The notes under the pieces were generated by a model. The model did no database searches and had not been told where the DNA came from. It saw nothing but the letters and a program-made list of their open reading frames with translations. This document shows, in pieces, positions 16,726 through 17,921 of a stretch of DNA of 64,000 nt (position 1 is its first letter; every line of letters starts with the position of its first letter). The stretch spans positions 4,092,001-4,156,000 of the forward strand of contig NC_003283.11 of the NCBI RefSeq assembly GCF_000002985.6. The letters run 5' to 3'. Both the position numbers and the translations under genes were made by a program. The DNA is from Caenorhabditis elegans (taxonomy: Eukaryota > Nematoda > Chromadorea > Rhabditida > Rhabditidae).

Positions 16726-17921
16726 TCACTTTTGAATTGATACTGCTTGTTCACTCATTCCTGATCTACTATCACAGCAACCGACCATTCCAGAAACAAT
16801 GCAAACAGCCAAATCGAGAAGACCAGAAATAAGGCAAAGATACGGACTATATCCAGCCTGAAATTTATTTGTTTAATTATCACAAAAACTGAATCAAGAA
16901 AATATAGTGTAGTTATATTCTAACCTCATATTCAACTTCCATCAATTTGTCGTTTTTATTGTGGGTTATATTTTGAGACATTAAACCAATCGAACCCGTC
17001 AGCGAAAGAAGCATAATAACGATAGATACTCCGAGAATTGCGGAAAATGTTCCACGAACACCGGCCAATCCTAATTCTCTTGCTTTACAGCTGGAAATAA
17101 TTGAATTGAATTCATTCGTTATTTTTGCCGTTGTATTTGTTAGTACATTTATGAATTTTCACATAAATTAAGTAGTTATTTTGTATTCTAAACTTAGGGG
17201 GCAAATAGCTCAGTCGGTGGCTTAAATTAATAGACCCACTATTAATTTAAGCCACCGACTGAGCTATTTGCCCCCTAAGTTTAGAATACAAAATAACTAC
17301 TTAATGATCACCACCAGGCAGTGTGCCTGACTCGCAGTGCATAGCACTTAAAGAACGGATAGTCCTTTAATCCGTTATTCTTTAATTAAATAACTGGGGT
17401 GGTAAACAAGTCCTGGGGCTTAACTTTTAAAAGGGGCTTAAAAAGTTTAAAAAAGCCTGAAAGAAATGGCTTCTCGTTGGGACACTTGGGGGCTTTTTTT
17501 AATTTATTTCAAATGATAATAAATAAATAAATAAATAAAATATCCACAGTTTCAAAAAACATTGGAACTTATTTACCCTTTTAATAATATATAGTAACTT
17601 ACTATGAGGGAACAAAAACGATAAGACGAATAAGATGAATGACAAAAGAAATGCCAGCAGCAACTTTAGCCAAAGAAAGTCCATATCTCTGAAAGAGAAA
17701 TACTGAAAACTGAAATGTAAAAATAACATTTCACTTACTTTATCTTCTTTGAGTGGAAAAATTCCAATGTAGTCAACATAGGACGTGAACATGTTTCGAT
17801 TCTGGTCCAGGTAGATGTATCTTGTTCTAACAACCCAGTTTTGAGAGAATAATCCAACGCTGTACATGATGGAACTCAAGAACACAAAGCATGCAAGGAA
17901 TACCAGACGACTGTTATACAT
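16726..17921 (-). CDS. Tetraspan membrane protein, claudin/Clc-like architecture, 188 aa
   Basis: Exons: 17739-17921, 17603-17688, 16925-17090, 16726-16857 (567 nt, phases consistent). Four hydrophobic segments are predicted: residues ~6-25 (LVFLACFVFLSSIMYSVGLF), ~66-87 (KVAAGISFVIHLIRLIVFV), ~101-122 (FSAILGVSIVIMLLSLTGSI) and ~149-172 (YLCLISGLLDLAVCIVSGMVG). After TM1 comes SQNWVV, placing a Trp where claudin/PMP22-like and nematode Clc-like proteins have one, but the usual W-GLW-C-C signature of the first loop is not visible. The product therefore belongs to the tetraspan class only by topology; molecular function is unknown. It lies on the same strand between two srw genes. Intron 2 holds the long perfect inverted repeat listed separately. 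Confidence 0.75.
17167..17305. repeat. Perfect 67-bp inverted repeat, 5-bp loop, with tRNA A-box in each arm
   Basis: Left arm 17167-17233, loop ACCCA 17234-17238, right arm 17239-17305. All 67 positions are complementary. Each arm holds TAGCTCAGTCGG, an exact match to the RNA polymerase III A-box consensus TRGCNNAGYNGG, in the context GGCAAATAGCTCAGTCGGTGG that resembles the 5' end of a tRNA. No convincing B-box (GGTTCGANTCC) is visible nearby. Downstream (17306-17410) are further short inverted segments (AAAGAACGGAT / ATCCGTTATTCTTT). It sits within the second intron of the tetraspan gene. Confidence 0.9.

Follow-up and report, generated by a model that had tools for sequence, protein, structure and literature searches.

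A perfect 67-bp hairpin in a Caenorhabditis elegans intron, very probably formed by inverted duplication inside a decayed tRNA-derived SINE

A perfect hairpin with 67-bp arms was found in an intron of a claudin-like gene of C. elegans, and comparison with dispersed repeats of the same genome indicated that it very probably arose by a one-off inverted duplication, through template switching or foldback, inside a decayed tRNA-derived SINE. The locus lies in a 64-kb stretch of DNA (positions 4,092,001-4,156,000 of contig C5), all of which was analysed and which we call the window; positions given below are those of the window unless stated otherwise. Genome-wide searches covered seven contigs (100,286,401 bp). 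The locus was divided into the following features.

17091..17602, - strand: intron holding the whole hairpin and SINE feature, 512 nt, with GT...AG boundaries assigned by eye; the SINE is antisense to the gene
17167..17196, + strand: the outermost 30 nt of arm 1, which are intron flank directly upstream of the SINE, with no other match in the genome searches that covered them; similarity to the SINE begins at 17197
17197..17216, + strand: SINE positions 1-20, the tRNA-like 5' end with the A-box, from alignment with SINE copies
17217..17238, + strand: SINE positions 151-170 plus two extra bases, with small changes, from alignment with the SINE copies L021 and L038; the last 5 nt form the loop
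17239..17305, - strand: arm 2, the inverted copy of 17167-17233 and the putative inserted segment, replacing 4 nt that read GAGG or GTGG in relatives
17306..17392, + strand: 3' part of the SINE from position 175 on, running from GATCACCACC to the TTTAATCC tail; the 39 non-self matches listed start at 17304-17306, and an 18-nt word count agrees

The two arms (17167-17233 and 17239-17305) are each 67 nt long, are complementary at 67 of 67 positions and enclose a 5-nt loop, ACCCA. Given the base composition of the window, the chance expectation for an inverted repeat with an arm of at least 67 nt and a loop of up to 20 nt in 64 kb was 8e-33. The runner-up exact palindrome in the window, with the same loop limit, has arms of 15 nt, and no arms of at least 25 nt with a loop of up to 20 nt were found in 217,692 bases from other loci, an overlapping and SINE-biased set from which the window's own seven loci were excluded. 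The A-box word TAGCTCAGTCGG occurs once per arm, at 17206 on the + strand and at 17266 on the - strand, and nowhere else in the window; the chance expectation for this 12-mer, with both strands of one arm counted, was 2.4e-6 at the window's base composition. These results confirmed two claims of a preliminary description of this DNA, namely a perfect intronic hairpin with 67-bp arms and a 5-nt loop, and an exact A-box in each arm.

The host gene is on the - strand. Its four exons, joined by eye, matched the Pfam family Claudin_3 (PF06653; E 2.5e-13; 50.7 bits against a cut-off of 28.7), indicating that the gene is claudin-like and not a tetraspanin, so that the name 'tetraspan gene' used earlier was not borne out. 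The stretch 17393-17510, in the part of the intron from the SINE tail to the splice donor, contains repeated GGGGCTTAA words and an imperfect inverted repeat of 18 nt (83%; 17440-17457 and 17491-17508). A genome search with 17377-17560 returned the self match only, and the stretch was rejected as part of another repeat.

To place the locus among repeats, the segment 17100-17520 was compared with the genome, which gave 41 matches from the 40 candidates scored out of 193. Two of these were self matches, one direct and one to the inverse of the locus; all 39 non-self matches listed from that scored set started at query positions 205-207, corresponding to 17304-17306, the end of arm 2. The first 18 nt of the SINE 3' part, GATCACCACCAGGCAGTG, occurred at 215 places in the genome at up to two mismatches (window copy included), against three for the reversed control. 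Full copies of the family start with GGGGGCAGATAGCTCAGTCGGTAGTGG, contain GAGTTCAAGTCC and finish in TTTAATCC repeats. Their head carries an A-box, a B-box and GGGGG/CCCCC ends, and a B-box lay within 90 nt of the A-box in 25 of the 28 distinct copies examined, a sample biased by best-hit selection. This promoter suggested that the family is a tRNA-derived SINE. Full copies with a tRNA-like head and a B-box, for which the preliminary description had proposed a genome search, were found. ARAGORN, run with bacterial settings, reported no tRNA in eight loci comprising the window locus and others (L003, L004, L005 and L038 hold full copies); Rfam found nothing in the region 1300-1620 of L021, which contains one SINE copy, and free folding of the first 78 nt of the SINE gave no cloverleaf.

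The window copy was also compared with 28 control copies for target-site duplications. Its longest shared word was 6 nt, a length reached by 522 of 1000 shuffles. Among the controls, the longest word was 24 nt in L012, 9 nt in two copies (reached by 2/100 and 1/100 shuffles) and 4-7 nt in the remaining 25. The L012 copy (C5, about 506,659-506,748) has a clear 24-nt terminal direct repeat, which is likely to be a target-site duplication. Six other copies (L006, L014, L015, L017, L042 and L069) have 5' ends with runs of 13 to 21 G, as if G had been added or had slipped. A different repeat adjoins the 5' side of the copy in L013 (C3, about 7,604,354-7,604,704); query positions 1 to about 187 of that locus matched at least eight other places at 93-96% identity, with 40 of 336 candidates scored, and the element is possibly nested or chimeric.

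Alignment of the window copy with these relatives revealed homology over the head, the middle and the 3' part, as in a damaged member of the family. The segment 17197-17218 is identical to L038 at 22 of 22 positions and to most copies listed at 21 of 22. The 13-nt piece that follows the head (17217-17229) is exact in many SINE copies, and the loop ACCCA corresponds to GCCCA of the SINE. An internal deletion of 130 nt, which includes the B-box, joins the SINE head (positions 1-20) directly to position 151. We then removed one arm at a time and realigned the rest, with L021 and L038 as stand-ins for the ancestral SINE. When arm 2 was removed, both copies became collinear with the window sequence from the first base of the SINE to its tail, leaving the 130-nt deletion, the 4-nt loss and an 8-nt gap; with L003, the third copy tried, the head was not recovered. 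When arm 1 was removed instead, scores with all three copies were lower (125.2, 114.4 and 127.2) and no head match was obtained. The untouched stretch scored slightly higher than the stretch lacking arm 2 (146.4 vs 144.2 for L021, 145.0 vs 143.8 for L038 and 141.4 vs 139.2 for L003), because cheap gap extension strings many tiny blocks together. The argument for arm 2 as the putative insert is the collinearity with L021 and L038, as read from the alignments, and not the score.

The loss of the B-box bears on an alternative in which the hairpin is the product of a Pol III promoter or of a small-RNA gene under selection, with a miRNA-like or siRNA-like output. An exact A-box is present on both strands, and the 139-nt hairpin is predicted to fold with -112.0 kcal/mol on the + strand and -112.5 kcal/mol on the - strand. 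Lax Rfam searches of 17000-17600 also returned matches to miRNA families at small E-values, of which mir-1298 came closest to its cut-off (59.8 of 70 bits; E 3.6e-12). All 21 of these lax matches fell below their gathering scores, at which Rfam found no match in the whole window. Eighteen of the 21 were to miRNA families, several of them with unrelated names, and six families matched on both strands, so that the matches are best read as an effect of the perfect stem. No B-box (GWTCRANNC) was present on either strand of the 800 nt from 16901 to 17700, which makes Pol III transcription unlikely. The bipartite promoter is incomplete in the window copy, with the A-box kept and the B-box gone, as in a broken member of the family and not a working SINE. 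The earlier suggestion that a Pol III complex could start inside the hairpin was accordingly not upheld, and we consider this alternative very unlikely. Among the candidates screened, a Pol III foldback gene was rejected on the missing B-box, a miRNA on the finding of sub-threshold Rfam matches only, and a tRNA gene was not reported anywhere in the window by ARAGORN (bacterial settings). Nothing in these results pointed to a selected function of the hairpin.

A second alternative is that the foldback formed during library preparation or cloning and is absent from the worm. Inverted template-switch artefacts do occur in amplified DNA. Against this, the finished reference was presumably assembled from overlapping clones, and clones tend to lose palindromes more readily than they gain them. 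An artefact of assembly or cloning is highly improbable.

The copy number of the arm and its composition bear on two further explanations. A genome search with one arm plus the loop, at E values up to 10, listed the two arms only and gave no second copy of the whole arm; this search was insensitive to short matches and missed SINE heads to which 22 nt of the arm can be matched. The word AAATAGCTCAGTCGGTGGC (19 nt), which spans the junction left by the deletion, was exact in the two arms only and occurred with two mismatches at four other places, one of which is the full SINE copy in L038. The 30-nt flank found no other match in the genome, whether the query was 17100-17520 or the arm plus loop. 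The preliminary description had also proposed a genome search for the arm, and within the sensitivity of this search the two arms were all that appeared. Its proposal of a tRNA-derived, SINE-like foldback held in large part: the arm does contain nucleotides 1-20 of a dispersed SINE with a tRNA-like head (A- and B-box in 25 of the 28 copies), and the notion of a repeated foldback element failed on the absence of a second whole-arm copy and on the junction 19-mer.

A perfect intronic inverted repeat around a short loop could also be explained by a DNA transposon of foldback or MITE-like type that carries a tRNA-like word in its terminal inverted repeats by chance, and the C. elegans genome is known for palindromic DNA elements. 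The same searches argue against it, since no second whole-arm copy was found and the junction word is exact in the two arms alone; furthermore, the arm is itself composed of flank joined to pieces of SINE, and SINE sequence takes up again where arm 2 ends on its outer side. A DNA transposon end was therefore rejected as a candidate, and we regard this origin as extremely improbable. Two independent SINE insertions in opposite orientation, tightened to a hairpin by deletion, are scarcely credible either: inverted SINE pairs such as inverted Alu pairs are described as a source of intronic hairpins (PMC11263572), but the arms here share the 130-nt deletion junction, the small changes and the 30-nt flank, which independent insertions would not do.

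The one-off inverted duplication can be placed in a relative order. The inverted copy runs 30 nt into the flank, indicating that the SINE was present before the duplication and that the event took place at this locus. The deletion of 130 nt is present in both arms, as are the small changes, so that these preceded the duplication or came with it. Departures from the relatives (for example, AATAG for ACAG) are common to both arms, and the arms differ from each other at 0 of 67 positions. The SINE 3' part differs from the commonest version at 6 of 74 aligned positions, in addition to the 8-nt gap; at this rate, which may include differences of the source subfamily, about 10.9 differences would be expected between arms as old as the SINE insertion, and the probability of none is 2e-5. 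The corresponding probabilities are 0.0012 at 5% divergence and 0.018 at 3%. The shared departures and the identity of the arms suggest that the duplication came last or that the arms were later homogenised, in agreement with the earlier view that the hairpin is young or kept by conversion. Long inverted repeats of C. elegans have been proposed to be actively maintained (PMC1803023).

On these grounds we infer the following course of events. A tRNA-derived SINE would have inserted into an intron of the claudin-like gene, antisense to it, and would then have decayed, losing 130 internal nucleotides together with the B-box. Later, DNA synthesis may have departed after CCCA, run back through the SINE head and on into the flank, copying 67 nt, and rejoined at GATCACC. 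The reverse-complement insert between CCCA and GATCACC would then form the perfect 67-bp hairpin, and a single DNA-synthesis event with two switch points would account for the structure. This event could have been a switch during replication, or foldback priming at a break followed by end joining; the order of the steps, their reduction to one event and the origin in DNA synthesis are all read back from the present sequence. At the entry point four ancestral bases are gone, so that microhomology is unreadable there, and at the return point none was seen by eye against the relatives.

Whatever the route, the predicted fold implies that RNA of the intron would carry a 67-bp duplex. The host pre-mRNA therefore likely contains this perfect duplex in its intron, where it may be a substrate of ADAR or Dicer, and the formation of dsRNA at the hairpin is plausible on the predicted structure. 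It is conceivable, though unlikely, that a single template switch in the decayed SINE has just made an intronic 67-bp duplex that feeds ADAR or RNAi; the hairpin would then be an RNA gene at birth, derived from a SINE's Pol III head and transcribed by the host gene. The one-off inverted duplication is of interest in either case as a clean example in a model animal, in which a dead SINE, and not two inverted insertions, would have given rise to a perfect intronic hairpin in a single step, and in which comparison with sister copies of the SINE makes the switch points readable. If editing or siRNAs occur at the hairpin, it would serve as a natural experiment on the handling of new dsRNA; otherwise it is a curiosity.

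The SINE family is probably CELE45. This label is tentative, as PMC6873666, in the text available, names two C. elegans SINEs, SINE1 and CELE45. CELE45 is described as a putative SINE of C. elegans with 583 annotated copies, and 95% of its active copies are bound by Pol III (PMC8457455). The family found here and CELE45 are both dispersed in hundreds of copies, and Pol III binds most active CELE45 copies; the window copy differs in that it has lost its B-box. A-to-I editing of intronic inverted repeats of C. elegans, and their immunoprecipitation as dsRNA, have been reported (PMC4282642). The hairpin resembles those repeats in being an inverted repeat within an intron that could form intramolecular dsRNA. 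Unlike them, it is perfect, has a short loop and would come from one duplication, and its 512-nt intron is below the 1-kb limit that the paper, in its available text, set for counting inverted repeats.

With regard to origin, foldback inverted duplications with end capture have been described at DNA breaks, and in yeast they rely on microhomology and mostly span about 5-34 bp (PMC11724301). The present case likewise shows a local inverted duplication, of which one end would have been made by synthesis and the other by end joining; it differs from the yeast events in its 67-bp arm and in the unreadable microhomology. A literature search of titles and the beginnings of abstracts, made by neither gene name nor coordinate and saying little about what is in print, returned nothing on this locus. 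Template switching yields perfect stems in one step, and some microRNA loci have been proposed to start in this way (Monttinen and Loytynoja 2022, PMC8794818). As in the template-switch mutations of that study, an adjacent stretch appears here to have been copied as its reverse complement to give a perfect hairpin. The differences are that the source is a decayed SINE head with its flank, in a worm intron, and that the hairpin is known from one sequence, as a candidate stem. The kind of event is thus already known, and the hairpin is a tidy example of it and not a new genetic element.
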